29,821 bases of DNA from a virus. Below are positions 14,149 to 29,821 of the stretch, one piece after another. Location of the stretch: positions 1 through 29,821 of the IMG/VR virus record IMGVR_UViG_3300006752_000138. One strand, written 5' to 3'. The translations under genes were made by a program, and so were the position numbers. The notes beneath the pieces were generated by a model. The model saw only the letters and a program-made list of their open reading frames with translations. It did not search any database and was not told the origin of the DNA. The first letter of the stretch is position 1. The number at the start of each line of letters is the position of its first letter.

Positions 14149-14156
14149 GATAAATA
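14149..14156 (+). promoter_or_regulatory. T4-type late promoter box (GATAAATA)
   Basis: GATAAATA begins directly after the stop of the 601-residue fibre gene and ends 25 bases before the ATG at 14182. It matches the NATAAATA late-promoter consensus and is identical to the box at 21590. A GACGGGG ribosome-binding-type stretch follows at 14164-14170. Confidence 0.6.
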
Positions 14157-14181
14157 TACTATAGACGGGGTACATTAAACA

Positions 14182-15645
14182 ATGGCATATCAAATAGACA
14201 ATTTTAGAGGACAGTTCTTAACGACAGTGGACGATGGCACTATTAACAATGCCACAGACCTTAAACTAGTAGGTAAGAACTACGCTGGATACGGTGAAGT
14301 ACAAAACGAAAACTTTGTTCACTTATTAGAAAATTTTGCAAGTAGTCAAGCACCAGGTAAACCTATTCCAGGACAACTTTGGTTTGATGCTTCTACTGGT
14401 GCAGAAAAGTTAAAATTTTATGACGGCACAGCTTGGAGAACAGCAGGTGGTGCAGAAGTAGGACCGCAGCCTGGACCAGTAGGCTTAGTCCAAGGTGACT
14501 TTTGGTGGGATACAACAAATGAACAATTATATGCAAGAGGCTCAGGTGGATTTGTACTTGTAGGTCCACAAAGTACAGGTGCTGGCAACGTCACACAAAT
14601 GCGTAGTTTGACACTTAATGACACTGCTACCCCAAGTGTTCAACATAGTGTAATTGCAGCAACGGTTGACGATGCAGTCATAGCCATTTTTAGTGATAAT
14701 CCATTTACTATTACATCATCAGATGCAATAGTAGGTTTTGATACAGTGCGTCAAGGTATTACATTAATAGACACACAGAATGCAGCCGGCGGTGTTACAA
14801 GTTCACCAGCAAGATTTTGGGGAACAGCAACAAACTCTGAAAGACTAAACGGATTACCAGCAAGTGATTACCTAACAACAACTAATCTTAATTTTACATC
14901 TATTGTTAGTTTTTCAGATGCAGGATATCAAGTAGGTGACGATAATGATCTACTAGTTAACATAGACGGTAACACTGCAAAAATTACACAAAAAGTTGGC
15001 GATACTATAGGAATATATGTTGAAGCAGCAGGCATAACTTACAATCCGGTGAATGTAAAACAATCAGATGTTTCTCCAGGGCAGGCAGGCGTAACTTTAG
15101 GAACAACAACTGATAAATGGTCAACTGTTTATGCAGACGACTTTGACGGAAATGCAACAAGCGCATCAGGATTAAAACTTACAGGTAATGTATATTATCC
15201 TACAACACAAGATACAGCGAATACAGTAGCATTGCGTGATGCAAATGGCGATATAGAAGCAAGATTCTTTAGAGGTGTTGCTACGTCTACTCAGTACGCT
15301 GACTTAGCTGAAATTTATGGCACAGAAGAAGAACTACCAACAGGAACAATTGTTGCTGTAGGCGGTACAGCAGAAGTGCGTCCAGCAAAGGCAAGTGATA
15401 TAGTAGTAGGTGTTATATCTGCAGAACCAGCATATTTAATGAATAGCACAGCAGATGGGCAAGCAATTGCACTTAAAGGTCGTGTACCTGTAAGAGTAAA
15501 AGGTCCTGTTTCAAAAGGACAGGCTGTATATGCGTGGCAAGATGGTATTGCTTCAACTATTGCAACTACTGGATTAGTAGGCGTTGCATTAGAGGCATGT
15601 GATGATGACTCAGAGTGTTTAATTGAATGTGTACTTAAAGTATAA
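14182..15645 (+). CDS. Tail fibre-like protein, third paralogue, with C-terminal YADLAEIY domain
   Basis: 487 residues. Residues 1-130 are the shared fibre N-terminus (ENFVHLLENFA, IPGQLWFDAS, GDFWWDTTNEQLYA). The middle has fibre repeats (VTLGTTTDKWSTVYADDFDG). From about residue 372 the C-terminal domain reads YADLAEIYGTEEELPTGTIV, VGVISAEPAYLMNS, ALKGRVPVRVKGPVSKGQAV. This resembles the C-terminal domains of phage appendage proteins related to the peptidase G2 intramolecular chaperone family, which in other phages help trimerise fibres and may be cleaved off. That assignment is tentative because I cannot see a confirmed cleavage residue. It has its own late-promoter-like box and is followed within 22 bases by another fibre-type gene. 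Confidence 0.75.
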   Translation: MAYQIDNFRGQFLTTVDDGTINNATDLKLVGKNYAGYGEVQNENFVHLLENFASSQAPGKPIPGQLWFDASTGAEKLKFYDGTAWRTAGGAEVGPQPGPVGLVQGDFWWDTTNEQLYARGSGGFVLVGPQSTGAGNVTQMRSLTLNDTATPSVQHSVIAATVDDAVIAIFSDNPFTITSSDAIVGFDTVRQGITLIDTQNAAGGVTSSPARFWGTATNSERLNGLPASDYLTTTNLNFTSIVSFSDAGYQVGDDNDLLVNIDGNTAKITQKVGDTIGIYVEAAGITYNPVNVKQSDVSPGQAGVTLGTTTDKWSTVYADDFDGNATSASGLKLTGNVYYPTTQDTANTVALRDANGDIEARFFRGVATSTQYADLAEIYGTEEELPTGTIVAVGGTAEVRPAKASDIVVGVISAEPAYLMNSTADGQAIALKGRVPVRVKGPVSKGQAVYAWQDGIASTIATTGLVGVALEACDDDSECLIECVLKV

Positions 15646-15667: not shown

Positions 15668-16642
15668 ATGGCAACTGTAAACGTTGGAGATATAATTACA
15701 GCAGCTCAGTATAATGATCTGCAAACAAGGATACTTAAAGTCTTAGGCAATGGCTCCAGCGATTATGGCTATGGACAAGCTATTACTTCGGATGCTGTAG
15801 CAGTTACACAAACTATTTTAGCATCACATATGAACGACTTATATGCTGATACAGTAGATGCTCGCACACACCAAACAGGCACTGTACCTACAACTATTGC
15901 ACAACTTGCAGTAGCAGAAATAATTGGCGCAGACGCAAGTAATTCTCCAAACGAAACAATTAAAGGCTTCAACGACTATAATGCTGTCATTGGACTAACT
16001 GAATCAAATAGACTTGTAGCAGCAGCAGGTCAAATGAGTGTAGAAAATAAAATTACAAGTGTTCGTAGTAATACCTGGGGTAATAGTCCAGATGTAATTC
16101 AGCATGTAGTATCAGTAACTTTCCCAGGTGGACAAAGTACAAAGAATACGTCTAATGGTAATCATACAGCAAGTGGAGCTGATCATATGCGTTACTTCTT
16201 TAACGCTGGCGGCCAGATACGCTTTAGTGCTTCCTTTGCAGGAGGTAGTGGTGCAAAGTTTAATGATTGGAATAGTATGGTAACTAATATGGGTACCATT
16301 AAGTTTGGACGTTCTGGAACAACTGCTACAGGCACTGGTACAACTTCTGCTATTGGTTATGCAAACATAACTACAAGCTATCAGCAGATATTTCAAAAAG
16401 GCGGTAGCGGTGTTTACGCAGAAAATGATTATATCATACAAGCTAGGAAAGTAGGAACAGACACTTTACAGTTCAGAATCTACTTTAGAGACGACGATAG
16501 CGGTGACCAAACAGGACTAGGTGCACCAGTTGACGAAAATGTTGGCAGTACATTAACAAGTACAGTAAGTCAATATAGAGCAACTGGATCATATGTAGCT
16601 GTACCTACACCTACATATACAAATAATACTACGTTACAATAG
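15668..16642 (+). CDS. Glycine/threonine-rich tail fibre-like structural protein
   Basis: 324 residues. The N-terminus (MATVNVGDIITAAQYNDLQT) resembles a short attachment domain seen in marine phage virion proteins. The C-terminal two thirds is glycine-, serine- and threonine-rich (HTASGADHMRYFFNAGG, GSGAKFNDWNSM, FGRSGTTATGTGTTSAIGYA) and predicted to be beta-structured, as in fibre or capsid-decoration proteins. It does not share the N-terminal domain of the three preceding fibre paralogues. GGAGAG lies 6 bases before the ATG. It is the last gene before the sigma70-type promoter, so it closes the virion module. The structural role is inferred from composition and position. Confidence 0.65.
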   Translation: MATVNVGDIITAAQYNDLQTRILKVLGNGSSDYGYGQAITSDAVAVTQTILASHMNDLYADTVDARTHQTGTVPTTIAQLAVAEIIGADASNSPNETIKGFNDYNAVIGLTESNRLVAAAGQMSVENKITSVRSNTWGNSPDVIQHVVSVTFPGGQSTKNTSNGNHTASGADHMRYFFNAGGQIRFSASFAGGSGAKFNDWNSMVTNMGTIKFGRSGTTATGTGTTSAIGYANITTSYQQIFQKGGSGVYAENDYIIQARKVGTDTLQFRIYFRDDDSGDQTGLGAPVDENVGSTLTSTVSQYRATGSYVAVPTPTYTNNTTLQ

Positions 16643-16654
16643 TCCAAATATCTG

Positions 16655-16683
16655 TTGACAAATCCTAAAAATTGTTATATACT
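16655..16683 (+). promoter_or_regulatory. Sigma70-type promoter (TTGACA, 17 bases, TATACT)
   Basis: A perfect -35 box TTGACA (16655-16660) and a one-mismatch -10 box TATACT (16678-16683) are separated by the ideal 17 bases, in the largest gap of the window (66 bases). AGGAG (16697-16701) then lies 7 bases before the ATG at 16709. In T4-like phages, host sigma70 promoters drive early genes, so the downstream cluster probably starts earlier in infection than the fibre genes to its left. Confidence 0.8.
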
Positions 16684-16708
16684 AGTGTAAATTACTAGGA
16701 GCTCTCGT

Positions 16709-17053
16709 ATGGATGAACGTCTTGAAAAGGCATTAGACTTTTCTAATTATATGGTTACATTAAACAATCAAAAAAGATTGTTAGCAGAACAGTTTGATCA
16801 AGATATTATTTACTACACCCGTGGAGGACAATTTACAGTAACACAAGAACTAATAAGTTTTTGTCATACTTTATTTGCATCTGATCAAACGGTTGCGGTT
16901 TTAATTGATGACAATAATATTCCTATTGAAATTGAATCACTAGAACATTTTTTGTCAGAAATTAATTCAATATATTTTGAAGCATCAAACAAATACCTAA
17001 ACGAATATTCAAAACTGAAAAAGAATAGATCAGTGGAGGGTATTATTGGATAA
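16709..17053 (+). CDS. Small conserved phage protein of unknown function
   Basis: 114 residues, acidic and mostly helical by appearance. Segments IYYTRGGQFTVTQELISF and VAVLIDDNNIPIEIESL resemble a small protein I remember from marine T4-like phages, with a C-terminal KLKKNRSVEGIIG tail. I recognise no catalytic motif, membrane segment or DNA-binding fold. It is first behind the sigma70-type promoter, with a good AGGAG site. Its last 8 bases overlap the TTG start of the first glycosyltransferase gene, so translation of the two is probably coupled. It could be a regulatory or assembly accessory for the module, but nothing in the sequence decides that. Confidence 0.65.
   Translation: MDERLEKALDFSNYMVTLNNQKRLLAEQFDQDIIYYTRGGQFTVTQELISFCHTLFASDQTVAVLIDDNNIPIEIESLEHFLSEINSIYFEASNKYLNEYSKLKKNRSVEGIIG
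17035..17040 (+). promoter_or_regulatory. Ribosome-binding site deciding a TTG start
   Basis: GGAGGG lies 5 bases before TTG at 17046, inside the end of the previous gene. This strong site supports the unusual TTG start of the first glycosyltransferase. Confidence 0.75.
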
Positions 17054-17888
17054 AGGTGTTCTTACGTTTGCGAGAAATAACTCACAAGTTGATTATATCA
17101 AACAAGCAGTTTTTCTTGCAAAGCGTGTTCGTAAGTATTTAGATTTACCTACCACTATCGCAACTGATAGTATAGACTATCTTGCGACTGCTTATCCAGA
17201 TTACGAAGATATTTTTGATCAAGTAATAGAACTAGATTGGACCAACACCCATAGTCTTAAACGTTTTTATGATGGTAGCATATCTGAAAAGCGATTGGAA
17301 TTTAAAAATGATTCACGTTGTTTAGCATATGACATTTCACCTTACGACGAAACAATATTATTAGATACTGATTATATTATTTCAGACGACACATTTAAGC
17401 ATTGTTTCCTGCAAGAACTTGATTTACTCTTATACAAAGATGCATACGATTTAGCTAACTTTCGAGATTATTCAGAGTTTGAGTATGTATCAGATACTAG
17501 TGTAGATTTTTACTGGGCAACTTGTGTATTTTTTAGAAAGACAAAAACAAACAAAATCTTTTTTGATCTAATAAAACATATCCAAGAAAATTGGAGTTAC
17601 TATAATGCAGTATATCAAATTAATTCTGTAACATATAGAAATGATCATGCGTTCAGTGTTGCAATCCATATCATGAATGGATACCAGTCAGGAAACTTTG
17701 CAGGATATATGCCTGGCAAATTATACTACACAACAGATAGAGATATTTTACTAGACTTGCAAGATAAAAGATTTACATTTTTAGTAGAAAAGCAACATCA
17801 TTTAGGCGAGTACCTTGCAATTAAGTTTGAAAATTACAGTGTTCATGTTATGAACAAATTTAGTCTTGAAAGGATAATCAATGTCTAA
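17046..17888 (+). CDS. GT-A-type glycosyltransferase-like protein, paralogue 1
   Basis: 280 residues, using a TTG start chosen because GGAGGG (17035-17040) sits 5 bases upstream and no nearby in-frame ATG fits. The N-terminus GVLTFARNNSQVDYIKQAVF, followed by LPTTIATD, looks like the first strand and helix of a GT-A nucleotide-sugar fold. ETILLDTDYII carries a DxD motif (Asp107, Asp109), normally binding metal and the nucleotide sugar. The next gene is a paralogue with the same layout, starting 8 bases before this stop. Donor and acceptor sugars cannot be told from the sequence. No membrane segment is seen, so it should act in the cytoplasm. Confidence 0.65.
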   Translation: MDKGVLTFARNNSQVDYIKQAVFLAKRVRKYLDLPTTIATDSIDYLATAYPDYEDIFDQVIELDWTNTHSLKRFYDGSISEKRLEFKNDSRCLAYDISPYDETILLDTDYIISDDTFKHCFLQELDLLLYKDAYDLANFRDYSEFEYVSDTSVDFYWATCVFFRKTKTNKIFFDLIKHIQENWSYYNAVYQINSVTYRNDHAFSVAIHIMNGYQSGNFAGYMPGKLYYTTDRDILLDLQDKRFTFLVEKQHHLGEYLAIKFENYSVHVMNKFSLERIINV

Positions 17889-18714
17889 AGGTATATTAAT
17901 GGTTGCGCAAAACAGTGCTGATGATTATGTTTTACAAGCATGTCTATGTGCAATGAGTATCAAAGCAACTAATGATATTAGTGTATCAATACTTACAAAT
18001 GATCCTATTCCTGACAAGTATAAAGATTTGTTTGAGCATGTAATAAATATTCCATGGACTGATAGTGCAGAAGACGAAAATTGGAAAGTTCAAAATAGAT
18101 GGAAAGCCTATCATGTAACACCGTACAATGAAACTATTGTAATGGATACCGATATGTTAGTGTTACAAAATATAGATAGTTGGTGGAATTTTTTATCTAA
18201 TTACGAAATGTATTTTACTAGCCATGTAATGGATTATAGGCAAAATGTAATTAACGACACATACTATAGAAAAGCATTTACAAGTAACAAGTTACCAAAT
18301 GTATATGTAGGTATTCATTATTTTAAAAAGTGTGATTTTGCACATGACTTTTATGGATGGTTAGAACTTGTATCTAATAATTGGAACTTGTTCTACGGAC
18401 ATTATGTAAAAGAAAATTATCCTAAAAGAATGAGCATGGATGTAAGTGCAGCAATTGTAACAAAAATATTAGATTGCGAATCTCAAATTACAAATGCAAA
18501 GGCGGCATTCCCTACATTTACACATATGAAACCTCATGTACAAGGATGGCAAACGGTTACTGAATCTTGGCAAGAAAGAGTTGGCGTGTATTTAAAACCT
18601 AACTTAGATTTAATTGTAGGAAATCATAAACAAGATGGTGTATTCCATTATACAGAAAATAATTTTGTAACTAATAAAATAATAAAAACATATGAGGAGG
18701 CATTATGTCTATAA
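17881..18714 (+). CDS. GT-A-type glycosyltransferase-like protein, paralogue 2
   Basis: 277 residues, related to the preceding protein: GILMVAQNSADDYVLQACLC parallels its N-terminus, and ETIVMDTDMLVLQNI carries the DxD motif (Asp89, Asp91) at an equivalent place. The first strand, the ILTND segment and the RWKAYHVTPYNET lead-in to DxD fit a GT-A fold of the glycogenin/GT8-like kind. After DxD the two paralogues diverge strongly, which suggests different acceptors. The gene overlaps the stop of paralogue 1 by 8 bases and the start of the next gene by 10 bases. Function beyond a likely sugar transfer is unknown. Confidence 0.7.
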   Translation: MSKGILMVAQNSADDYVLQACLCAMSIKATNDISVSILTNDPIPDKYKDLFEHVINIPWTDSAEDENWKVQNRWKAYHVTPYNETIVMDTDMLVLQNIDSWWNFLSNYEMYFTSHVMDYRQNVINDTYYRKAFTSNKLPNVYVGIHYFKKCDFAHDFYGWLELVSNNWNLFYGHYVKENYPKRMSMDVSAAIVTKILDCESQITNAKAAFPTFTHMKPHVQGWQTVTESWQERVGVYLKPNLDLIVGNHKQDGVFHYTENNFVTNKIIKTYEEALCL

Positions 18715-19307
18715 TATGGCAAGCGCCTCCGGCAAAGGTTGGATCGCCTTATAGAGTTTACTTTGAAGCAAGCACAGGAAATATTATCAGTGTTACTAAT
18801 GATATTGAACAACGAGATGATTATCCATCTGTAGAAACAACTTTTGAAGATGTTGAAGATATTTTAACTGGTGAAGAATTTATTACTAGTGTAAAAGTTG
18901 TATACAATACACAAACAAAACTTTATGAACTTGATAGAAACACTTTAGATAACTATGTATATAATATTAATGATTGGTTGTATGAATGCAATGATGATAC
19001 AAATGCAGATATACAAATTATACAAGATTTAAAAAATACATGCTGGAAGTTTTATATAGGAGAAGAATTAAAGGCAAGACTAAATGAACAAAAAGTAACA
19101 TTAAATGTAGATTGTCATTTTCATGTAACTGAAAAAAATAATCCTAATGTGTTACACAAAACATTAAGTTTTCCTTTATCGCAACTACGCAGCGAATTTT
19201 ATATTGTACTTCCCTTTTTAGAACAATATGAGTTTGACGGTGTACCTGTAAGTGTATACACTATAAGAAAATTTGACACATATAGCTATGAGGTAACAAA
19301 TGACTAA
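18705..19307 (+). CDS. Unrecognised 200-residue protein within the glycosyltransferase run
   Basis: 200 residues, acidic (many Asp/Glu), with three cysteines and no catalytic motif I recognise. The N-terminal segment PPAKVGSPYRVYFEASTGNI followed by ISVTN resembles a small beta module, and the rest looks mixed alpha/beta. The first residues (SIIWQAPPAKVGSPYRVYF) are more like a virion or binding protein than an enzyme. A strong AGGAGG site (18695-18700) lies 4 bases before the ATG, inside the end of the previous gene, and its own stop overlaps the next start by 8 bases. It is therefore an integral member of the operon. It could be a carrier or acceptor protein for the neighbouring glycosyltransferases, which is speculation from position. 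Confidence 0.6.
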   Translation: MSIIWQAPPAKVGSPYRVYFEASTGNIISVTNDIEQRDDYPSVETTFEDVEDILTGEEFITSVKVVYNTQTKLYELDRNTLDNYVYNINDWLYECNDDTNADIQIIQDLKNTCWKFYIGEELKARLNEQKVTLNVDCHFHVTEKNNPNVLHKTLSFPLSQLRSEFYIVLPFLEQYEFDGVPVSVYTIRKFDTYSYEVTND

Positions 19308-20226
19308 AAAGTTTAGAGTTTTAGATTATGATATTATATATTTGTCATATGATGAACCGAATGCAGAAGAAAATTATGCAGATTTATGTAGTAAGATACC
19401 CTGGGCAAAACGTGTTCACGGAGTAGAGGGCAGTGATGCTGCACATAAAGCATGTGCTGAATTAAGTGAAACTGATAGATTTATTACAGTAGACGGTGAC
19501 AATAAAATTATACCTGAATTCCTATCACAAGAAATAGACTTTGGAGAACATGCCGACTTAGAACATAGTGTAATTAGCTGGTGCGGCAAGAATGTTATTA
19601 ACGGATTGTTATACGGCAATGGCGGACTTAAATGCTGGCCAAAAGAGTATGTGCTAAACATGCGTACACATGAAAACGCAGATCCAGACAATCCACATGC
19701 ACAAGTAGATTTTTGCTGGGACTTAAAATACATCCAGCAGAATAGTTGTTACAGTAATGTTTATAATAATGCAACTGCACAGCAGGCTTGGAGAGCAGGA
19801 TTCCGCGAAGGTGTAAAGATGGCACTAGACCAAGGAGTAAAACCTACACAAGAAGACTTTCTTAAAGGGCATTGGAAAAACTTGCATAGACTTTGGATAT
19901 GGCTAATGATCGGAGCTGACGTTGAAAACGGACGTTGGGCAATGTATGGAGCCAGAGAAGGCTTGTATAAAACAATGTGTACTGATTGGGACTATGTACA
20001 AGTACGTGACTTTGAATATTTAAATACTCTATGGAAAGAAAAAGGCGACATTGTAGAAGAAGACATTGTTTATTATACAGAAGAATTAGGAGAAAAATTA
20101 AAACAAGAATTAGATATACCTATAGCACTTGAACCTTTAGATGCTGAACAAAGTAAATTTTTTAAAACAGTATATCAAAATCCAAGTAGAAATCCTAACC
20201 AACAGTTTGTAATTGACCCAGAATGA
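19300..20226 (+). CDS. Putative glycosyltransferase, GT-A-like with DGD motif
   Basis: 308 residues. The N-terminus YDIIYLSYDEPNAEENYADL, then AKRVHGVEGSDAAHKACAEL and TDRFITVDGDNKI, follows the order expected of a GT-A enzyme: first strand, helix, then an acidic DGD motif (Asp65, Asp67) for metal and nucleotide sugar. The segment GNGGLKCWPKEYV could be part of the acceptor side. A long helical C-terminal half (WRAGFREGVKMALDQG; WAMYGAREGL) is unusual for small glycosyltransferases. I associate this family with marine T4-like phages. It is unrelated at sequence level to the two GT-A paralogues upstream. The ATG overlaps the previous stop, and the stop overlaps the radical SAM start by 4 bases (ATGA). 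Confidence 0.6.
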   Translation: MTKKFRVLDYDIIYLSYDEPNAEENYADLCSKIPWAKRVHGVEGSDAAHKACAELSETDRFITVDGDNKIIPEFLSQEIDFGEHADLEHSVISWCGKNVINGLLYGNGGLKCWPKEYVLNMRTHENADPDNPHAQVDFCWDLKYIQQNSCYSNVYNNATAQQAWRAGFREGVKMALDQGVKPTQEDFLKGHWKNLHRLWIWLMIGADVENGRWAMYGAREGLYKTMCTDWDYVQVRDFEYLNTLWKEKGDIVEEDIVYYTEELGEKLKQELDIPIALEPLDAEQSKFFKTVYQNPSRNPNQQFVIDPE

Positions 20227-21587
20227 AATCAGAAACCCAACTTATAAAAGAAAATATGGAATTGATGGACGACATAAGTCCAACATTTTGTTTAGCAAAA
20301 TGGCACCATACTACTATATATTTGCATACAGGTGATACACATAGTTGTTATCATCCATCTCCGCATCATATACCTATTGAAGAAATACGCAATAATCCAA
20401 GCGCATTGCACAATACATTAGAAAAGAAAAAAGAACGTGCTAAAATGTTAATAGGTGAGCGTTGTGTAGGTTGTCAATATTGCTGGAACGTTGAAGATAT
20501 GAAAGATGATCATATTAGTGACAGAATGATACGGAACCAGTCTATATATAAACCTGAGCGTGTAAAAGAGATATTAGATAATCCTTGGGACTTTAATGTT
20601 AATCCGGAATATGTAGAAGTTGCGTTTAGTAATGAATGTAATTTTAAATGCGGATACTGCCACCCTATGGCAAGTAGTTCATATCATGCTGAAATTAAGA
20701 AGTTTGGTAAAGTTGAAGGTGTAAACAATCATGCATTAGATATTGATTGGTTCAAGCCTATGGCAGAAGATGACAATCCTTATATCCAAGCATGGTGGGA
20801 ATGGTGGCCTGAACTTAGTAAAACACTAAACATATTACGTGTTACTGGCGGAGAACCATTGATGCATAAAAGCACTTGGCGTATATTTGATGAATTAAAA
20901 GCAAATCCACGCCCTCATATAGAACTTAATCTCAATAGTAACATGGGGCTTAGTCCTCGTATCATTAGTAAGTTTGCAGATAACGTTAATGAATTACTAG
21001 AAGGAAATAAGATTAAAAAGTTTAAAGTATATTCTAGTATGGATTCATTTGGTAAACGTGCAGAATATATGCGTACTGGATTAAGCACAGAACTATGGGA
21101 AAGTAATATGAAAAACTTTCTTAACAGCACAAAGTCAGACTTAACAGTGATGTGTACTTTTAACATTTTGAGTGTAACAAACTTTACATTATTTTTGCAA
21201 AAGGTATTAGACTGGCGTGAAGAGTTTTATGATGGCAAGCGTAGACGTATTAGGTTTGATACTCCTTACTTAAAAGAGCCTTTACAATACGATATGCACA
21301 TATTACCTAAAGAAGAATTTTTGCCTTATATGGATCAAATTTTAGATTTTATCAAAGCAAATCAAGACGATGATGATACAAAAAAATTTAGCGATTTAGA
21401 ATATGAACGTTTTCGTAGAGTACGGGATTACTTTGCAAAAACTAGTTATAGTGAAGAGCGCATTATAGAAGGACGTAAAGATTTTTATAATTGGTTTACT
21501 GAATATGATCGTAGACGCAATGTAAACTTTTTAGAGACATTTCCTGAAATGGAAAACTTTTTTAATTTGTGTAGAGATACTGTATGA
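20223..21587 (+). CDS. Radical SAM protein with N-terminal twitch-type domain, copy A
   Basis: 454 residues. CNFKCGYC supplies the radical SAM CxxxCxxC cluster (Cys139, Cys143, Cys146), and LRVTGGEPL is the SAM-binding GGE motif. Ahead of it lies a cysteine-rich N-terminal domain with Cys23, Cys42, Cys81, Cys84 and Cys87 (SCYHPSPHH; CVGCQYCW). This fits the N-terminal-twitch radical SAM family, where such cysteines hold an auxiliary iron-sulphur cluster. These enzymes make radical modifications to peptides or small molecules; the substrate is unknown. The order, with the extra cluster before the catalytic core, is opposite to SPASM proteins. It is paralogous to the gene at 27749. The ATG overlaps the glycosyltransferase stop, with no clear ribosome-binding site, suggesting translational coupling. 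Confidence 0.85.
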   Translation: MKSETQLIKENMELMDDISPTFCLAKWHHTTIYLHTGDTHSCYHPSPHHIPIEEIRNNPSALHNTLEKKKERAKMLIGERCVGCQYCWNVEDMKDDHISDRMIRNQSIYKPERVKEILDNPWDFNVNPEYVEVAFSNECNFKCGYCHPMASSSYHAEIKKFGKVEGVNNHALDIDWFKPMAEDDNPYIQAWWEWWPELSKTLNILRVTGGEPLMHKSTWRIFDELKANPRPHIELNLNSNMGLSPRIISKFADNVNELLEGNKIKKFKVYSSMDSFGKRAEYMRTGLSTELWESNMKNFLNSTKSDLTVMCTFNILSVTNFTLFLQKVLDWREEFYDGKRRRIRFDTPYLKEPLQYDMHILPKEEFLPYMDQILDFIKANQDDDDTKKFSDLEYERFRRVRDYFAKTSYSEERIIEGRKDFYNWFTEYDRRRNVNFLETFPEMENFFNLCRDTV

Positions 21588-21589
21588 TA

Positions 21590-21597
21590 GATAAATA
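21590..21597 (+). promoter_or_regulatory. T4-type late promoter box (GATAAATA)
   Basis: GATAAATA lies in the 44-base gap after radical SAM copy A and ends 34 bases before the ATG at 21632. It is identical to the box at 14149 and fits the NATAAATA consensus. This is the only break of note inside the modification cluster, so the oxygenase and following genes may also be expressed late. Confidence 0.6.
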
Positions 21598-21631
21598 TTA
21601 TTATATGCTACTATAACTGAAGGGATAAGAA

Positions 21632-22366
21632 ATGCAACAATTATCAGACATCTTTAATAAAGATATATTTGAGACAGGATCGGCGTTTTCACAAGGTGTT
21701 CCAATTCCAATGGGAGTAGTAGATGATTTCCTTCCGAAAGATGTTGCATTATCTATGTTTAAAGAAAGCCAAAGTATAGACAATCATAAATGGAAAACTT
21801 TTACAAGAAATGGAAGTCATATGATGGAATTAAATAAAATGGAACTAACACCTCTTGCATTTAACACTCTTGGATATTTGCACAGTTCTTATTTTTTAAA
21901 CTTGTTATCTAAATATACAGGAATAAATGGTCTAATTACAGACCCTCATTTAGTTGGTGCAGGCTATAGTAAAAGTTTTAATGGTGATATATTAAATGTG
22001 CATACTGACTTTAATTGGAATGAACAGTTACAGTTACATAGAGCGTTAACGCTCACTATATACTTAACTCCAGATTGGAATGAAGAGTGGAATGGAGCAT
22101 TAAATTTTTATGACGATAAAAAAGAAAAAATTGTAACTACAGTAGCCTCTTTGTTTAACCGTTGCCTTATTTGGAAATACAATAGATTTGGATATCATGG
22201 ATATGATAATCCTATAGAATGTCCTACAAATAAAAATAGAACAACATTTAGAGTATTTTATTATACTAGCAATAGTACACATCTAGCTGAAGATCCTCCC
22301 CATAGAAGTTTATACTGGGTAGATGAAAAAACAAAGATGCCTTATGATAAGAAAACTCAACAATGA
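21632..22366 (+). CDS. 2-oxoglutarate/Fe(II)-dependent oxygenase
   Basis: 244 residues. The double-stranded beta-helix iron site is visible: HTD (His124, Asp126) and a distal His189 in GYHGYDNP, followed by Arg203 in NRTTFRVFYY as the likely 2-oxoglutarate carboxylate anchor. LTIYLTPDWNEEWNGALNFY between them is the typical prolyl-hydroxylase-like core strand pair. Such enzymes hydroxylate proteins, sugars or small molecules using oxygen and 2-oxoglutarate. Similar genes are common in marine T4-like phages. GAAGGGA precedes the ATG, and a late-promoter-like box lies just upstream. The stop overlaps the next start by 4 bases. The target is unknown; the neighbours suggest a glycan or a virion protein. 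Confidence 0.85.
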   Translation: MQQLSDIFNKDIFETGSAFSQGVPIPMGVVDDFLPKDVALSMFKESQSIDNHKWKTFTRNGSHMMELNKMELTPLAFNTLGYLHSSYFLNLLSKYTGINGLITDPHLVGAGYSKSFNGDILNVHTDFNWNEQLQLHRALTLTIYLTPDWNEEWNGALNFYDDKKEKIVTTVASLFNRCLIWKYNRFGYHGYDNPIECPTNKNRTTFRVFYYTSNSTHLAEDPPHRSLYWVDEKTKMPYDKKTQQ

Positions 22367-23568
22367 AAATTTACACTAAAACCGGCAAAACAAATTTTTG
22401 GTTTGAAGAAGACAACTATAAAATTATTTCAGCAAACGAAAATTATGAAATAGGATCAGTTTTTTGGTATGATCAACACGATGCAATAATGCACAATGTA
22501 AAGTTTAATGATGGATTCCCAGACAGTGCATGGTCTCATTTGAAAAAAGATCCATCGTCTAAAATTTTGCTATTCTATGGTGACGAGTATTTTAATTTAT
22601 TTGAAGTAAAAATATATGCAGAAACTATTAAACAGCGAGAATTACCGCCCGAGCAAGTTTATATAGTGTGTCTAGACGATAATTGGGTACCTTGGACGTA
22701 TAAACAGTTTTCTAAATTTGGCGTCACTGGTATTAATATACAGTCATTAAATTTTTTAATGAAACGAGCAATTCCGCAAGATATAATTCCTACCACTAAA
22801 AAGTTTAGTATGTTTAGTAGAAATTATGTAGACTGGAGATTGCAGTTTTTTTGTGAATTAGTTAACAATAATCTATTAGATTATTTTGAATATACATTTA
22901 ACAATATTATGCCCTACGGAAAAATTGTTACATATACCCAGTCTCAAATAAAAGAACATGCTGAACAAATGGGATATACAATTAACAAAAAGTTAAAAAA
23001 TTGGATTGAAGGTATTCCGTATACATTAGAAAATAATAACGTTCTTGAAAAAATGTCTCAACAAGTTTATGATAAAATTTCTTCTTCAGATATTAATGTA
23101 GTAATTGAGTCGCATTTTGATCCATTGTGGAATGATAAACATAAACTCGGGTATAGCTGGAGAGAACTTAGTCCTGCATTTCCGACAGAAAAAACATATA
23201 AAGCTATTGGATGTAATAGGCCTTTCATAATAGTTTCAACACCTGAGTTTTTAAAAGAATTTAGACGATTAGGTTATAAAACATTTCATCCATATATAGA
23301 TGAAACTTACGATACTATTGAAGATCAAAATAAACGTATGAAAGCAATAATTAATGAAATAGACCGTATATCAAAATTGCCTACGGATGAGTATAGTACA
23401 CTAATTAGAGAATGTGAAAAGATTGCTCAATATAACATGCAAGTATTTAAACAAGCACACCGGAATTTTAAATTACAGCCTAATTTTATATGGATGGACA
23501 AAATTTTAAAAGACAACTGGAGAACTCCTAACATTGCAGAAATACGCCATACACTAGGACGTATATGA
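22363..23568 (+). CDS. GT-B/GT10-like glycosyltransferase-type protein, copy 1
   Basis: 401 residues. The C-terminal block near 272-338 reads FPTEKTYKAIGCNRPFIIVS, then FRRLGYKTFHPYIDETYD. It resembles the TEKxxxAxxxxxPI donor-binding motif of GT10 fucosyltransferases and other GT-B enzymes. Earlier, VYIVCLDDNW and KFSMFSRNYVDWRLQFF match equivalent places of the paralogue at 24566. Membership of a glycosyltransferase family is inferred from this distant motif, so the activity is less certain than the relationship between the two copies. No membrane segment is apparent. It overlaps its neighbours by 4 bases on each side (ATGA), sitting between the oxygenase and the sugar epimerase. Confidence 0.55.
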   Translation: MKIYTKTGKTNFWFEEDNYKIISANENYEIGSVFWYDQHDAIMHNVKFNDGFPDSAWSHLKKDPSSKILLFYGDEYFNLFEVKIYAETIKQRELPPEQVYIVCLDDNWVPWTYKQFSKFGVTGINIQSLNFLMKRAIPQDIIPTTKKFSMFSRNYVDWRLQFFCELVNNNLLDYFEYTFNNIMPYGKIVTYTQSQIKEHAEQMGYTINKKLKNWIEGIPYTLENNNVLEKMSQQVYDKISSSDINVVIESHFDPLWNDKHKLGYSWRELSPAFPTEKTYKAIGCNRPFIIVSTPEFLKEFRRLGYKTFHPYIDETYDTIEDQNKRMKAIINEIDRISKLPTDEYSTLIRECEKIAQYNMQVFKQAHRNFKLQPNFIWMDKILKDNWRTPNIAEIRHTLGRI

Positions 23569-24566
23569 AAATATTTATAACAGGGATAGCTGGATTTTTA
23601 GGAAGCCACTTAGCAGATCGCATGATTGAACTAGGTCACAAAGTTTCTGGCAACGATACTCTTATAGGTGGTTATGAAGATAATGTACATGAGAAGGCTG
23701 ACCTATATAAAGTAGATTGTTGTGATAGATCACGCATGACAGAAATAATGAAAGATGTAGATATAGTAATTCATACTGCTGCTACTGCACATGAAGGACT
23801 AAGTGTTGTAAGCCCTGATTTTATAACAAAAAATATATTTCAAGCAAGTGTTAGTGTCATAAGTGCAGCATTAGCAAATAATGTAAAGCGGTTTGTATAC
23901 TGTACATCTATGGCACGGTATGGTGATCAGCAAGCACCCTTTACAGAAGATATGCAACCTAAGCCAGTTGATCCGTACGGTATTGCAAAAGTTGCAGGAG
24001 AAGACGTTTTAAAAGCTCTTAGCGAAACACATGGCATGGAGTGGAATATAGCAGTACCGCACAACATTGTAGGTCCACGGCAGCGTTATGATGATCCATT
24101 TAGAAATGTAATGAGTATTATGATAAACAGAAATTTACAAGGTAAGCCTGCTATTATATATGGCGACGGAATGCAAACACGTTGTTTTTCTTACATAGCA
24201 GATTGTGTAGACTGTTTAGAAAGAATGAGTTTAGATTCTGCAATAGTAAATGAAATTATTAACATTGGACCAGATGAAGGAACAATTACAATTAAAGAAT
24301 TAGCAAGTTTAGTTGCAAACGAAACTGGCATAAACACTGCGCCTATTCACATGGATGATAGACCTAGAGAAGTAAAACATGCAATGTGCAGTGCTGATAA
24401 AGCAAGACAGCTTTTAGACTACGAAACTACTACTGATATTAAAACAGCAGTAATACGTACAACTGAATACATAAGACGCAGGGGCGTAAAGCCCTTTGAT
24501 TATACATATCCGCTAGAGATTGTAAATGACAAAACCCCTAAAACTTGGAAGGATAAGTTAATTTAA
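23565..24566 (+). CDS. NAD-dependent sugar epimerase/dehydratase (extended SDR)
   Basis: 333 residues, full length for the family. ITGIAGFLGSH (Gly7, Gly10, Gly13) is the NAD(P)-binding glycine motif. YCTSMARYG (Ser115) and YGIAK (Tyr138, Lys142) form the catalytic triad, and HNIVGPRQRYDDPF is the substrate-side loop typical of UDP-glucose 4-epimerase-like enzymes. It probably converts a nucleotide sugar for the neighbouring glycosyltransferases. GalE, dehydratase or related specificity cannot be separated here. DCCDRSRM after VDCC is the usual second strand position where NAD's ribose is bound. The ATG overlaps the previous stop; its TAA shares a base with the next ATG (TAATG). Confidence 0.9.
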   Translation: MKIFITGIAGFLGSHLADRMIELGHKVSGNDTLIGGYEDNVHEKADLYKVDCCDRSRMTEIMKDVDIVIHTAATAHEGLSVVSPDFITKNIFQASVSVISAALANNVKRFVYCTSMARYGDQQAPFTEDMQPKPVDPYGIAKVAGEDVLKALSETHGMEWNIAVPHNIVGPRQRYDDPFRNVMSIMINRNLQGKPAIIYGDGMQTRCFSYIADCVDCLERMSLDSAIVNEIINIGPDEGTITIKELASLVANETGINTAPIHMDDRPREVKHAMCSADKARQLLDYETTTDIKTAVIRTTEYIRRRGVKPFDYTYPLEIVNDKTPKTWKDKLI

Positions 24567-25855
24567 TGCATTTTACTTTTGAGCAAATAGTAGACGAAAA
24601 TGAATTTAATAATCTTACAAGTTGCACAGATATAAATCCGTCCGGTATTAAAAGATTTACTCCTAGTCCTTTAGTAACTGTACTATACAAATATATTAGG
24701 CGCCATCATAATTTAAAAATTACATTTGGAACTACACCTCTTGTCAGTGACGAGCCGTATATTATAGCCTCTGGAGTTGCACATAGTCCTGATGGTTGGG
24801 CAGAAGCACCTAACGGGAGCAAGACAACACCATTTGATCACTTAACTAAACAACAGCGTTATGATTTAAAATGGGGCAAGGCATACTTACTATTAGATCA
24901 ATCGCACGAAGGTTATCATGAACATTGGTTATGGGGATGGTTTCATGATAAGTGTAACAAATATGATATTCCTATACAACGTATAATATATGTAACTGGT
25001 AATATGAATGGTGCAGATCAATATAATGAATGGGCAACTAACCACGGATTACTTAAAGAAGTCAGGATGTATGTTTTTCCTTATAGTCATTTTGAAATAG
25101 CAATGGCTAGTATGATACCAGAAAGTAATTTACCTACAGCAAAACAACAATTCAAATACAAAAGAAAAAATGCAGCATCTATAAAATTATACGATTGCCT
25201 ACAAAAAAGAGCTCGAAACCATCGTGCCTGGCTGTTTACAAAATTACATAAAGAACAGTTGCTAGATAAAGGTGTTAATTCTATGAATGAATTTACCTTG
25301 CAACGTGCATTTATGGAAGGACAACATTTACCTGAAGAAGATTATAATTCAATCAAAGGTATGTTGCCTATGTATCCGCCTAATGAAAATGACGCTCATA
25401 CATACGAGTCGCAAGATTGTGGTCAATTTTTAATTAAGTATAATGACGATATTATGTTACAGACATGGTTATCTATTGTAAGTGAAGCGCACTACAGTGA
25501 TGTTGATACTAATCATACTGTTTTCTTAAGTGAAAAAACATTTAAGCCTATTGCATGTTCGCAACCGTTTATACTGTATAGTAATAAAGGATCTCTACGT
25601 AGACTTCGGGAATTAGGCTACATGACGTTTCATCCTTTTATAGATGAAACTTATGATGATTTAGAAACATTTGACAGGTTAGACGCAATAGTAAAAGAGC
25701 TTAAACGTATTGATAATTTTACTACAGCAGAAAAACTTGATTGGCTTAAAAGTATGGTTTATATATTACGATACAATCGAAATCACTTAGAAAAATTAGC
25801 AACAACACCTTCTATAAATATGCTAACACAGTTCAGGAAAATATTTTATGTTTAG
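24566..25855 (+). CDS. GT-B/GT10-like glycosyltransferase-type protein, copy 2
   Basis: 429 residues. The block near 319-385 (FLSEKTFKPIACSQPFILYS, then LRELGYMTFHPFIDETYDD) closely parallels the protein at 22363, as do IIYVTGNMN and RARNHRAWLF earlier. The two are diverged paralogues separated only by the epimerase gene. The EKTFKPIA motif resembles the donor-binding part of GT10/GT-B enzymes, so sugar transfer is a reasonable but unproven call. The N-terminal 90 residues are unlike copy 1. The gene starts at the TAATG overlap and its last 8 bases overlap the first SGNH-like gene. Confidence 0.55.
   Translation: MHFTFEQIVDENEFNNLTSCTDINPSGIKRFTPSPLVTVLYKYIRRHHNLKITFGTTPLVSDEPYIIASGVAHSPDGWAEAPNGSKTTPFDHLTKQQRYDLKWGKAYLLLDQSHEGYHEHWLWGWFHDKCNKYDIPIQRIIYVTGNMNGADQYNEWATNHGLLKEVRMYVFPYSHFEIAMASMIPESNLPTAKQQFKYKRKNAASIKLYDCLQKRARNHRAWLFTKLHKEQLLDKGVNSMNEFTLQRAFMEGQHLPEEDYNSIKGMLPMYPPNENDAHTYESQDCGQFLIKYNDDIMLQTWLSIVSEAHYSDVDTNHTVFLSEKTFKPIACSQPFILYSNKGSLRRLRELGYMTFHPFIDETYDDLETFDRLDAIVKELKRIDNFTTAEKLDWLKSMVYILRYNRNHLEKLATTPSINMLTQFRKIFYV
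25813..25820 (+). promoter_or_regulatory. Possible internal late promoter box (TATAAATA)
   Basis: An exact T4 late consensus TATAAATA, 27 bases before the ATG at 25848, at the same spacing as the intergenic boxes. It lies within coding sequence (Ser-Ile-Asn codons), and at least one other ATAAATA occurs by chance in the middle of a gene (18042), so this may be coincidence. Confidence 0.35.
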
Positions 25856-26873
25856 TAGTCAAGTAAAACAAATTAATAAAGATTTGGCAAAAAAGGGAAG
25901 AGCAATCGTCTCTATAGGCTGTTCTTTTGTACAGGGCCAAGGAGCAATTAACGATGAGATTTTTGATAATTATAACTTCAAAGCTAGTGATTTGGGCGAA
26001 GTCCTAAAAATACAGGCAAACAATGAAACACGTGAACAATTACTTTCTCAATATTCGTCACTATACACAGGACCAAACGGTGTGATAGATTTTACTATGA
26101 TGGAATATGAAAATTCTTTTGTGTATCAGTTAGCTAATCATCTTTATAAAGGGAAATATGTCCCAATTAACTTTGGTCAAAGAGGCTGTGGTAATAGAGC
26201 AAGTATAAAAGAACTATATTTCAATAATATTAAATGGAATTTTTGTAAAGAAATTATTGTAATATATTGTCCTAGTGGAATAGAACGATTTGATTTTGCC
26301 CAAGATCAAAGTGGTGAACATTTTAGATGGGTATGCATGTGGCCACATGAGCTTCCAGAATCAAATGGTCCAAGAAAAAAACTTTGGGACGGATACAGAG
26401 AGGCAGTGTATTCTGATAAACATGCTATTATAGAACAAATTGGTCATGTTCAAGAATTACTTACATGGTGCAAGGCACACAATGCAAAATTAATTATAAC
26501 TTCTGCATTTGATAGACGCTACGATAAAGAGTATTTTCAAAATGAACTTGCAAAACATGCTGAAAGGGCAGACAATGAATTAAAAGAGTATAGACCTAAA
26601 AAAATGTTTGAACGAAAAAATTTGTTTGTAGATTATTACTTAGAAATGTGGCCCTGGGATAAGATGTTTCATCCTTTTGGGTTTGAAACGTTTGCTGATC
26701 TAGCAATTAATCAAGAACCTGATGTAGAAAATAAAAAAGACCCTTATTGGCAATTTCAAGGAAATAGATCACCATTAGGATATATTACAGCTTGTTCGCA
26801 CCCTGGACAAAAAGCACATGCATTATTTGCATCAGCACTTGCCAAGCATATAAAAGAAATTAAAAATGCATAA
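25848..26873 (+). CDS. SGNH-hydrolase-like protein, copy A, altered catalytic end
   Basis: 341 residues. IVSIGCSFVQGQG (Ser26) resembles block I with the nucleophilic serine, GQRGCGNRASI (Gly113, Asn116) resembles the oxyanion-hole blocks, and ACSHPGQKAHALFA (His318) resembles block V. The usual Asp three residues before the catalytic His is Ala315, so the triad looks incomplete. It may use another acid, be weakly active, or act as a binder. The family includes esterases and acetyl-modifying enzymes of polysaccharides. Between blocks it carries a long insertion rich in charged residues (about 210-300). Its neighbour is a second SGNH-like protein, with 8 bases of overlap. Confidence 0.65.
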   Translation: MFSSQVKQINKDLAKKGRAIVSIGCSFVQGQGAINDEIFDNYNFKASDLGEVLKIQANNETREQLLSQYSSLYTGPNGVIDFTMMEYENSFVYQLANHLYKGKYVPINFGQRGCGNRASIKELYFNNIKWNFCKEIIVIYCPSGIERFDFAQDQSGEHFRWVCMWPHELPESNGPRKKLWDGYREAVYSDKHAIIEQIGHVQELLTWCKAHNAKLIITSAFDRRYDKEYFQNELAKHAERADNELKEYRPKKMFERKNLFVDYYLEMWPWDKMFHPFGFETFADLAINQEPDVENKKDPYWQFQGNRSPLGYITACSHPGQKAHALFASALAKHIKEIKNA

Positions 26874-27762
26874 AAGAACACAAGTTATAGCACCCGAAGT
26901 TCGTAGTAAGTACTTAGATGATGGACAACCTAATTGGGAATTTTCTAGACAGCAAGCTGATTGGCCCGAGTATGTAAGGGATGAGTTAATTCATCCTTTT
27001 ACTAGATTTTTACCTCGTTCTTTGGATAGTAAAGGAAACGTAACTGATAATTTTTCACAAGGTGATAGTGAAAAAGCATGGAAAAGGAAAAGACGACATC
27101 TTGGCAAGGACTGGCACTATTTTAGCAAGACGATACATTACAAAAGAAATGTTAGTGGATTTAGAACATATGATTGGAATGAAATAAACTGGAAAGAATG
27201 TGTTGTATTGTTAGGTTGTAGTTGCACTTACGGAGTAGGTGTTGATGATTCGGAAACACTAGCAGAACAATTAGAAGCATTATGTGGTAGACAAGTTGTT
27301 AATTTAGGCTTAGGAGGCACCTCCAATCAGTTTATGGCATTTGTATTATCAAAATTGTACAAGCGTTTTGAATCACCTTACGCTGTAGTTGCAAATTACA
27401 CAACACTTGATAGAAATTTTTATTTTCATGAAACCGACACATTTCACTTAGGTCCTTGGTGTCAGAAAGACAAGCGTCCGATGACAGATAATACTTTATA
27501 TCCTGTAAGACAAAAAGACTTATACTTTAACAGTTTTTACAATCCGACAAACACTATAATGCAAACACGAGCACATTCAGACACTATTAAAGCATTATGT
27601 AAAGATAGATCCAAGCTGTTTAATATTACATTTTTTGAAGACGCTGCTCATGCAGTAAGAGCAGATGAATGGTTTGAAATAGATAGTCAAGCAAGAGACC
27701 TTTTACATCCTGGTAGAGCTCGATTTAAAGATATGGCAGAATGGATAAATGAGCGACTATAA
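26866..27762 (+). CDS. SGNH-hydrolase-like protein, copy B, complete catalytic residues
   Basis: 298 residues. VVLLGCSCTYGVGV places the serine nucleophile at 119, NLGLGGTSNQ gives Gly150 and Asn154 of the oxyanion hole, and RDLLHPGRARF supplies the Asp278-x-x-His281 pair. All four SGNH positions are therefore present, unlike copy A. A 110-residue N-terminal extension (WHYFSKTIHYKRN; WNEINWKE) precedes the hydrolase core and is of unknown function. It could be a deacetylase or esterase acting on a glycan, judged from the glycosyltransferase neighbours. No signal peptide is visible. The gene overlaps the previous stop by 8 bases and the following radical SAM start by 14 bases. Confidence 0.7.
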   Translation: MHKRTQVIAPEVRSKYLDDGQPNWEFSRQQADWPEYVRDELIHPFTRFLPRSLDSKGNVTDNFSQGDSEKAWKRKRRHLGKDWHYFSKTIHYKRNVSGFRTYDWNEINWKECVVLLGCSCTYGVGVDDSETLAEQLEALCGRQVVNLGLGGTSNQFMAFVLSKLYKRFESPYAVVANYTTLDRNFYFHETDTFHLGPWCQKDKRPMTDNTLYPVRQKDLYFNSFYNPTNTIMQTRAHSDTIKALCKDRSKLFNITFFEDAAHAVRADEWFEIDSQARDLLHPGRARFKDMAEWINERL

Positions 27763-29248
27763 TAATGCAGCAGATACTGCTGAAAAACAATTAAAAAGAA
27801 TTAGTCCTAGCATGTGTTATGCTAAGTGGGCACAGGTGAGTATACACTTAACAAATGGAACTACGCATAGTTGTTACCATCCTCCGTTACATAAAATTGA
27901 TATAGATGAAATTGCTGTTACACCTAGTGCATTACACAATACAAAACAAAAGAAAGAAGAACGTTCACAAATGCTAAAAGGTGAACGGCCGAGAGGTTGT
28001 ACCTATTGCTGGAAAATAGAAGACCAAGGCAGACGTAGTGATCGTATATATAGATCAGGAGAGTACTGGGCACAAAATGCAAGAAGTGATATTATTGATG
28101 TGCTTGATACAGGTAACATTACTCCTAGATACGTTGAGGTTAATTTTAATCAAGCATGTAACTTAAAGTGTATGTATTGTAGCCCGCACCTAAGCACAGC
28201 ATGGCATGATGAAATAAAACAACATGGACCTTACCAACTTGTAGACACAAAACATAATGATACTGATGCATTAACAGAACAAGGACTTATGCCACTTAAC
28301 GTACCTCAAGCTGAAAATCCTTATTTACGAGCATTTTGGGAATGGTGGCCAGAACTGTATAAAAAATTAGAAGTATTTCGTATTACAGGCGGCGAACCTC
28401 TAATGGACGTAAACACTTTTAAAGTTTTAGATTACATATACGAGCATCCTAATACTTCTTTAGAAATGAGCATTACAACAAATATGAGTCCGCCTAAGAC
28501 TGAACTGTTTGACAAATTTATTGCAAAAACAAAAAAGTTAGAAGAAATACAAATATGGGAAGACAAAGAAAAGTTTAATCCTGGTAGTGGAAACAATTGG
28601 TATGTTAATCCTGCGCTAAAAAATTTAGCATTGTTTGTTAGTGTAGATTCAGTGGACGAACAAGCAGAGTATATTCGCACTGGTTTAGATTATAAATTAA
28701 TGCAACAAAATATAAACACATTTTTGCAAGAAACTAACAATACTACTTTAACTTTTATTAATACATTTAATGCTTTAAGTTTGCCTGGCTTTAAAAAGTT
28801 CTTGACAAATGTGTTAGAATTGCGTAAACTATATAGTAAGGAGTTACAAGGTATAAAGTATATTCCAATTGTTGATCTATACAACACGCATGATGATTAC
28901 GAAATACATCCACGTCAGCGAATATGGTTTGATGTGCCATTGCTTAGAGACCCAGCATGGCAAAATATGAATATACTACCTAGAGAATATAGTTACATGA
29001 TAAAAGATGCACTTGACTTTATGAAGGAAAATTCAAACGTAGATAACTTTGCAGGATTTTACGATTTTGAAATTGCAAAAGTAGAACGTAATTTGGAAAT
29101 GTTTTTAGCAGCGCCAAGGCACGAGTTAACGACACAACGTAAAAACTTTGTAATGCATATGACACAACACGACCAACGTAGAGAAACAAACTTTGATCAA
29201 ACGTTTCCAGAGTATGCTGATATGATAAATGATTGGAAAAACTTGTAA
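27749..29248 (+). CDS. Radical SAM protein with N-terminal twitch-type domain, copy B
   Basis: 499 residues, a paralogue of the gene at 20223. CNLKCMYC gives the radical SAM cysteines (Cys137, Cys141, Cys144), and FRITGGEPL is the GGE motif. The N-terminal domain keeps Cys23, Cys42, Cys84 and Cys87 (SCYHPPLHK; CTYCW), but the position of Cys81 in copy A is proline. The four cysteines common to both are therefore the best candidates for the auxiliary cluster. About 45 extra residues compared with copy A lie partly after the first domain and around WEDKEKFNPGSGNNW. The substrate is unknown. The start overlaps the previous stop by 14 bases; its TAA overlaps the next ATG by one base. Confidence 0.85.
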   Translation: MSDYNNAADTAEKQLKRISPSMCYAKWAQVSIHLTNGTTHSCYHPPLHKIDIDEIAVTPSALHNTKQKKEERSQMLKGERPRGCTYCWKIEDQGRRSDRIYRSGEYWAQNARSDIIDVLDTGNITPRYVEVNFNQACNLKCMYCSPHLSTAWHDEIKQHGPYQLVDTKHNDTDALTEQGLMPLNVPQAENPYLRAFWEWWPELYKKLEVFRITGGEPLMDVNTFKVLDYIYEHPNTSLEMSITTNMSPPKTELFDKFIAKTKKLEEIQIWEDKEKFNPGSGNNWYVNPALKNLALFVSVDSVDEQAEYIRTGLDYKLMQQNINTFLQETNNTTLTFINTFNALSLPGFKKFLTNVLELRKLYSKELQGIKYIPIVDLYNTHDDYEIHPRQRIWFDVPLLRDPAWQNMNILPREYSYMIKDALDFMKENSNVDNFAGFYDFEIAKVERNLEMFLAAPRHELTTQRKNFVMHMTQHDQRRETNFDQTFPEYADMINDWKNL

Positions 29249-29821
29249 TGTATGATATGGTTTTTGTAGGACCAAAATCAGAGCGTTACAATAATTTAAA
29301 ACAAAAATACGCGATGCTCAAACATGCTAAAGACGTAGATATGGCAAGGTCTTTATCTATGACAAGGATGCTTTGGATTATCTGGGACGATGTGCAAGTG
29401 TGCGATAATTTTGATTTCGAATTTGAAGCAGACCAATGGAGTCAAGATGTAGTACATATTTTTAAAAATGATAATATTTTTGACGGTATAATCCTAGTGC
29501 CTAAAAGTGTTACTATTACTGAAGAAGAAATTAAGCATAGAATTTTTTCTAAGAAAAAAGAAGTTGCTATTATAGCAAGCACTCCAATATCTTTTGATGT
29601 ATTTGAAATAAATTCATACGATGATTACACACATGCACTAGAAAATAGCTCTACTGAAATGTTTTGGATGACTAGTAATAACCTAAAAATAGATAATAAT
29701 TTAGTTGACAGTTTTTATATTTCTCATCATGATATAGTTGATAGAAAGCAAAATCATGCATTTATACATCGAGTAGACAATACTGATTACTACAATGGTG
29801 TATTTTTATGTAGCAAACATG
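29248..29821 (+). CDS. Marine phage-type protein of unknown function (3' partial)
   Basis: The ATG at 29248 shares a base with the preceding TAA (TAATG), and the frame stays open to the window's end, giving about 191 residues of a longer protein. It starts MYDMVFVGPKSERYNNLKQK and contains MLWIIWDDVQVCDNFDFEFE. A likely internal repeat is visible: VHIFKND...FDGIILVPKS and HAFIHRVDN...YNGVFLCSKH. I remember similar proteins with repeated DGI.L.PK units in marine phages, without a proven function. A link to sugar transfer is possible given the context, but no DxD or other catalytic motif can be assigned in the visible part. Confidence 0.7.
   Translation, partial: MYDMVFVGPKSERYNNLKQKYAMLKHAKDVDMARSLSMTRMLWIIWDDVQVCDNFDFEFEADQWSQDVVHIFKNDNIFDGIILVPKSVTITEEEIKHRIFSKKKEVAIIASTPISFDVFEINSYDDYTHALENSSTEMFWMTSNNLKIDNNLVDSFYISHHDIVDRKQNHAFIHRVDNTDYYNGVFLCSKH

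Follow-up and report, generated by a model that had tools for sequence, protein, structure and literature searches.

Here, we analysed the whole of IMG/VR virus record IMGVR_UViG_3300006752_000138, a linear record of 29.8 kb referred to as the window, and focused on the glycosyltransferase and radical S-adenosylmethionine (SAM) enzyme genes encoded next to its tail fibres. The window starts with g01, g02 and the tail-fibre genes g03-g05, and continues as overlapping genes on one strand to its right end (Table 1). Junctions in this run overlap by 1-16 nt throughout, with the sole exception of a 44-nt gap between g12 and g13. A preliminary description, made from the sequence alone, had listed one overlapping run with these gene families, and we found the open reading frames (ORFs) where it had placed them, all on a single strand; the epimerase (g15, PF01370), the third glycosyltransferase (g11, GT-A-like) and the 2-oxoglutarate (2OG) oxygenase (g13, PF13640) that it had named were likewise recovered. 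The run contains a core with the glycosyltransferases A1, A2 and K, followed by a cassette framed by the radical SAM enzymes R1 and R2.

Table 1. Genes and features of the window, with positions in nucleotides
Feature	Assignment	Positions	Strand	Remarks
g01	Giant structural protein	2-9649		Long SLQSQL-type coiled-coil-like repeat stretch
g03-g05	Three tail-fibre paralogues	10289..15645	+	About 250 N-terminal residues common; collar domain in g03; Peptidase_G2-like C-terminus in g05
g06	Probable virion/adhesin protein of the tail operon	15668..16642	+	Synteny conserved; putative function from position
g07	Small conserved protein	16709..17053	+	Upstream of the glycosyltransferase pair in 64/64 evaluable K-picked loci
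g08 (A1)	GT8/glycogenin-like GT-A glycosyltransferase	17046..17888	+	DxD in 158/158
g09 (A2)	Paralogous GT-A glycosyltransferase	17881..18714	+	Separate ancient clade
g10	Conserved core protein between A2 and K	18705..19307	+	
g11 (K)	Third GT-A-fold enzyme	19300..20226	+	Conserved D-G/A-D-N motif
g12 (R1)	N-terminal-twitch radical SAM enzyme (NF033640)	20223..21587	+	Left bracket
g13	2OG-Fe(II) oxygenase (PF13640)	21632..22366	+	E 7e-12; 46.6 bits vs gathering score 27
g14	GT-B-type glycosyltransferase (T family)	22363..23568	+	GT-B by paralogy to g16
g15 (E)	NAD-dependent nucleotide-sugar epimerase/dehydratase	23565..24566	+	PF01370, E 9e-49
g16	GT-B-type glycosyltransferase (T family)	24566..25855	+	
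g17 (S1)	SGNH-like hydrolase or acyltransferase	25848..26873	+	Membrane segment none seen
g18 (S2)	Second SGNH-like protein	26866..27762	+	Distinct family
g19 (R2)	N-terminal-twitch radical SAM enzyme (NF033640)	27749..29248	+	Right bracket
g20	5' part of a K-family repeat protein	29233..29821	+	Cut by window end
g13 + g14	Two-gene indel, 1,976 bp	21588..23563	+	Absent from relatives L004 and L007

Relatives' loci (L-numbers) were picked by K (L166-L245) or by g02 (L246-L325), the latter without reference to radical SAM genes, and both sets were annotated with profiles built from R-picked loci; genes were called by a simple longest-ORF method, trees were quick searches, and all counts depend on loci passing the similarity searches, with the best 80 matches per search. 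The order g02-fibres-g06-g07-A-A-g10-K recurred almost invariably in both sets. Two A genes and g07 were present upstream of K in 64/64 evaluable K-picked loci, and of the 50 g02-picked loci for which 9 kb or more of downstream sequence was available, 43 had two A genes following. The core g06-g07-A1-A2-g10-K sits in the tail-fibre operon and is near-universal among relatives.

The proposal that g08 and g09 are GT-A paralogues was borne out by BLASTP (E 3e-13) and by a profile match to glycogenin of family GT8 (E 4e-7) over positions 1-111, the nucleotide-binding part. The DxD motif was retained in 158/158 A1 and nearly all A2 sequences, so neither resembles a dead copy. Compared with glycogenin and GT8, A1 and A2 share the N-terminal part and DxD but gave no match to Pfam Glyco_transf_8, g09 showing a weak Mannosyl_trans3 match only. 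In a tree of 56 loci, A1 and A2 formed one clade each, suggesting that the tandem pair resembles one old duplication with its order kept. We also found that g11 and g20 belong to one family, a pair that the earlier reading had missed. The g20 homologue in L019 (11531-14101) has 857 residues, with several repeats of the roughly 100-residue g20 unit followed by a g11-like domain, and L037 (13097-18922) encodes a 1,942-residue g20 relative. In L228, L232, L239, L240 and L244, the core is followed by two K genes, and radical SAM genes are lacking within reach.

The two radical SAM proteins, correctly recognized beforehand as twitch-type, are full-length members of NF033640, with scores of 309.4 bits for g12 and 313.2 bits for g19 against a cut-off of 170. 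They share 37% identity (BLASTP E 4e-98), and R1 and R2, classed by at least 50% identity to g12 or g19, are distinct phage groups of this family. In the tree, R1 was a single clade with 100% support in the Shimodaira-Hasegawa-like approximate likelihood ratio test (SH-aLRT), and R2 was nearly so, needing two changes. Judged by such trees, the A1/A2 and R1/R2 pairs both appear old, each member having its own clade or nearly so. In an alignment of 42 sequences, C137, C141 and C144 of CxxxCxxC as well as C23, C42 and C84 were invariant, and C87 was present in at least 90%; the R enzymes retain four auxiliary cysteines, CxxxCxxC and GGE. Positions 10-85 of the R profile matched the C-terminal region of BtrN (2-deoxy-scyllo-inosamine dehydrogenase), residues 184-258, and the radical SAM core then follows in R, so that the similar auxiliary-cluster domain is C-terminal in BtrN but N-terminal in R. 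We take BtrN to be a sugar-alcohol dehydrogenase and these residues to be its twitch domain. To our knowledge, the NF033640 family (N_Twi_rSAM) has no assigned reaction.

Twitch and SPASM enzymes often act on peptides, and the R enzymes might instead modify side chains of the tail fibres, by forming cross-links or creating an attachment site, with sugars added later. In the cultured jumbo phages Phosso (a Sinorhizobium phage; L085 22644-30384) and Atu_ph07 (L086), radical SAM genes come next after g02 and fibre genes of the same kind, and two of the Phosso proteins most resemble the SPASM peptide maturases PapB, DynA, DarE and anSME. However, 0/3 Phosso proteins tested were NF033640 members (best 22 bits against 170), the auxiliary-domain match of the R family is to a sugar-alcohol enzyme, and small genes of the precursor type are absent from most R arrays, where 73/94 neighbouring R genes touch or overlap each other pairwise (median R-R gap -7.5 nt) and 10/94 pairs are more than 100 nt apart. 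We therefore consider side-chain modification rather improbable. A system of the kind that makes ribosomally synthesized and post-translationally modified peptides (RiPPs) was tried and rejected, given that no small precursor gene stands beside a maturase and the window genes overlap. In Phosso, a cupin protein precedes the radical SAM genes.

The cassette of the window has the order R1-[2OG oxygenase-GT-B]-epimerase-GT-B-SGNH-SGNH-R2. Among relatives, the cassette began with R1 and ended with R2 in 32/32 loci that carry the two enzymes, over two unrelated phage lineages, a count that overstates independence because some loci are near-copies. Between them, the epimerase (E), T, S1, S2 and an optional oxygenase-T pair (OG-T) occur in varying combinations, and nothing lies between them in L050/L051. 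R1, R2 and E are better conserved, and T, S1 and S2 diverge faster. Exchange of inner genes was seen at gene-exact resolution: L004, one of the nearest relatives, lacks exactly g13 and g14, with flanks of 92.6% and 90.5% nucleotide identity, and its R1 stop overlaps the E start (TATGA) at the indel site. The only gap in the window operon coincides with this insertion point, and the oxygenase gene adjoins a T gene in 19/19 cases among relatives. Gene content varies greatly downstream of K, as would be expected if auxiliary genes had gathered loosely in a hypervariable island and shared no pathway, but the fixed R1-first, R2-last order over two lineages and the exact inner exchange are unexpected for such an accumulation, which we regard as very improbable. 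Families and order were kept in relatives, as a proposed check of co-occurrence had anticipated, indicating that the gene set is not a matter of chance.

The inner enzymes were assigned as follows. The T proteins g14 and g16 match each other (BLASTP E 7e-18), and the AlphaFold model of g16 (predicted local distance difference test, pLDDT, 91.5) had GT-B enzymes such as OtsA and TarM as its best Foldseek matches throughout (E 2e-4 to 1e-3). The label GT-B/GT10-like given earlier thus stands for GT-B and finds no support for GT10, with no Pfam GT10 match and folds of the OtsA/TarM type. The epimerase g15 is LegB/RmlB/GalE-like and missed every equivalog cut-off. For g17 and g18, SGNH-like by motif, a mixed alignment showed G24, S26, N108 and H318 invariant, candidates for the GxS nucleophile of block I, the N of block III and the His of block V; they gave no Pfam match and no BLASTP similarity to each other, and are not close paralogues as had been supposed. 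Sequence searches of the PDB with K, T and SGNH profiles returned nothing credible.

The number of R genes varies strongly. Of 55 K-picked loci, 49 had one or more NF033640-type genes in the 10 kb that follow K, as many as eight R genes can stand in a row, and 21 matches were counted on the 198-kb contig L063 (IMGVR_UViG_3300021957_004906) and up to 19 on others. The idea of four equal doublets serving a two-branch pathway was accordingly rejected, because some loci have no R copy within 10 kb of K, one contig holds 21, and g13-g14 is an indel; moreover, position does not sort the T copies into two clean clades, and S1 and S2 are not close paralogues.

We further examined where the module occurs. 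The g02 protein matched 60 isolate records, and those among the matches listed were mostly jumbo phages (Phosso, Atu_ph07, Vibrio 2.275.O, RaK2 and 121Q); IMG/VR relatives lie on contigs of up to 344 kb. The R1..R2 cassette was found in two settings, next to the tail core and, in T4-like phages, next to replication genes. One of these, L032, carries canonical gp32 and gp59 as well as PhoH, its gp32 being closest to Melnitz, HTVC008M and cyanophages, while jumbo contigs that matched gave divergent gp32-like matches only. The context label, a rough one set by neighbouring genes, changes at least three times on the R1 part of the tree and at least eight times on the R2 part, consistent with repeated transfer. 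Tail-fibre adjacency, on which the preliminary description had relied, is thus solid for A1-A2-K but not for the cassette. A Nol-like carbamoyltransferase stands directly after R2 in several T4-like contexts (e.g. L032:11488-12936).

In Vibrio phage K566 (GenBank; L084 14650-24117), a single cluster intersperses two GT8 genes and one GT4-like gene among four R-family genes, of which two exceed the NF033640 cut-off; this strengthens the glycan theme proposed at the outset. In tblastn searches of an isolate phage collection that included HTVC008M, K, R2, T and S1 were unmatched and g12 gave weak matches only. Contigs with the fibre-g06-g07-A-A-K-R arrangement (L089, L091, L092, L093, L107 and L124) were binned in bacterial metagenome-assembled genomes (MAGs) of Pelagibacter, Rickettsiales, Rhodobacteraceae and others; spread over different bacteria, these six phage contigs are not host evidence. 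Genome scans used a ten-sequence R subset, the full R alignment being too divergent. R2 was found in 1/297 SAR11/Pelagibacterales and 1/398 other Pseudomonadota genomes sampled, in each case solely the MAG for which a phage contig was already known, and T in 1/197 sampled genomes, the same phage-contig MAG. With matches in the sampled genomes confined to phage-contig MAGs, an origin from SAR11 or other Pseudomonadota hosts was rejected.

Given that GT8-like, GT-A and GT-B glycosyltransferases are encoded with a nucleotide-sugar epimerase, glycan assembly is the leading interpretation; glycan modification of the virion or the host surface is the best reading, and the gene set probably decorates one of the two with an unusual sugar structure. 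The host surface could be the target if an O-antigen or other surface glycan were altered during infection and competing phages blocked, the fibre neighbourhood then reflecting joint exchange of host-interaction genes. GT8 genes in similar pelagimyophage islands have been proposed to modify the host O-chain (PMC7029224). The cassette is found apart from tail genes as well, and relatives carry it together with carbamoyltransferase, nucleoside diphosphate (NDP)-sugar dehydrogenase and nucleotidyltransferase-like genes. Against this, a hydropathy scan of g07-g20 gave zero membrane segments, no flippase, membrane transferase or ligase was found in the window, and A1-A2-K is fixed in the tail operon across relatives, which would be odd for a free-standing surface kit. 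These features speak for an acceptor in the cytosol, for instance a fibre, and we judge remodelling of the host surface to be unlikely, though it is the most serious competitor.

We therefore put forward, tentatively and as something short of probable, that a two-layer module of a large myovirus modifies the virion with a glycan. The first layer would consist of A1, A2 and K, an invariable set of three whose genes accompany those of the tail fibres and which most likely add the first sugars to a cytosolic acceptor; our best guess is a protein of the tail fibres or an adhesin, modified as virions assemble. The second layer would be the exchangeable tailoring cassette framed by R1 and R2, in which g15 may make a sugar donor, one or two GT-B enzymes may extend the chain, the two SGNH enzymes may add or remove acyl groups, and the optional 2OG oxygenase may hydroxylate. 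R1 and R2 would contribute two invariable radical reactions that act on the sugar or glycan, e.g. oxidation, epimerisation or deoxygenation, and the swapping of middle genes within the kept frame would vary the displayed structure between phages. The purpose may be receptor binding, masking or blocking of competing phages. The more specific proposal, that R1 and R2 are a dedicated pair editing a phage-made glycan on tail fibres while the enzymes between them are exchanged as a cassette and alter the displayed structure, so that radical chemistry would vary the surface of the virion, is a doubtful one.

Several observations weigh against virion glycan modification. No shared acceptor motif was seen in the g06 C-termini. 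The fold matches are weak, with template modelling (TM) scores of about 0.3-0.4 for K, which is GT-A-like by structure, and T (about 0.4 for g16). Six loci carry the core but lack any R gene over the 10 kb after K (L228, L232, L236, L239, L240 and L244), and cellular R homologues have mixed neighbours with few glycosyltransferases and no clear pathway. Moreover, the presence of the cassette away from tail fibres in T4-like phages indicates that tail adjacency is not required, and this mobility weakens the argument for a cytosolic acceptor as far as R1..R2 is concerned.

Parts of this picture are known already. The host recognition cluster of pelagimyophages is a hypervariable island with tail fibres, several glycosyltransferases (GT8 being the commonest) and radical SAM cassettes, the last lacking in freshwater members (PMC7029224). 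The window resembles it in combining tail fibres, GT8 and radical SAM cassettes in a variable island but differs in its Atu_ph07/RaK2-type tail module, constant A1-A2-K core and ordered R1..R2 cassette; the pelagimyophage cluster is defined between VrlC and the neck gene gp14, and the window ends inside its island, with g02 matching Atu_ph07/RaK2-type jumbo phages. In Cluster O mycobacteriophages, Corndog gp35-gp38 include glycosyltransferase and methyltransferase genes in a virion operon, with capsid modification proposed (PMC4351075). Corndog likewise has several glycan-modifying genes inside a structural operon, but these adjoin head genes and not tail fibres, and radical SAM, epimerase and SGNH genes are unreported there. 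The expectation of an undescribed system thus gives way for the combination of radical SAM cassettes with GT8, published in 2020 (PMC7029224), and holds for three features that we did not find described in the literature searched: a core that stays fixed, a frame of R1 and R2, and inner genes exchanged exactly.

Earlier work noted that tail-fibre islands of aquatic phages contain radical SAM genes but left these unexplained. If the target is the virion, the module would represent a fibre-varying chemistry in phages that we have so far not found described. With a constant core, an R1..R2 frame and gene-exact exchange of inner parts, what had been a list of auxiliary genes becomes a defined module whose steps can be tested. 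The K566 record, in which GT8 genes neighbour members of this radical SAM family, may open a way to experiments.

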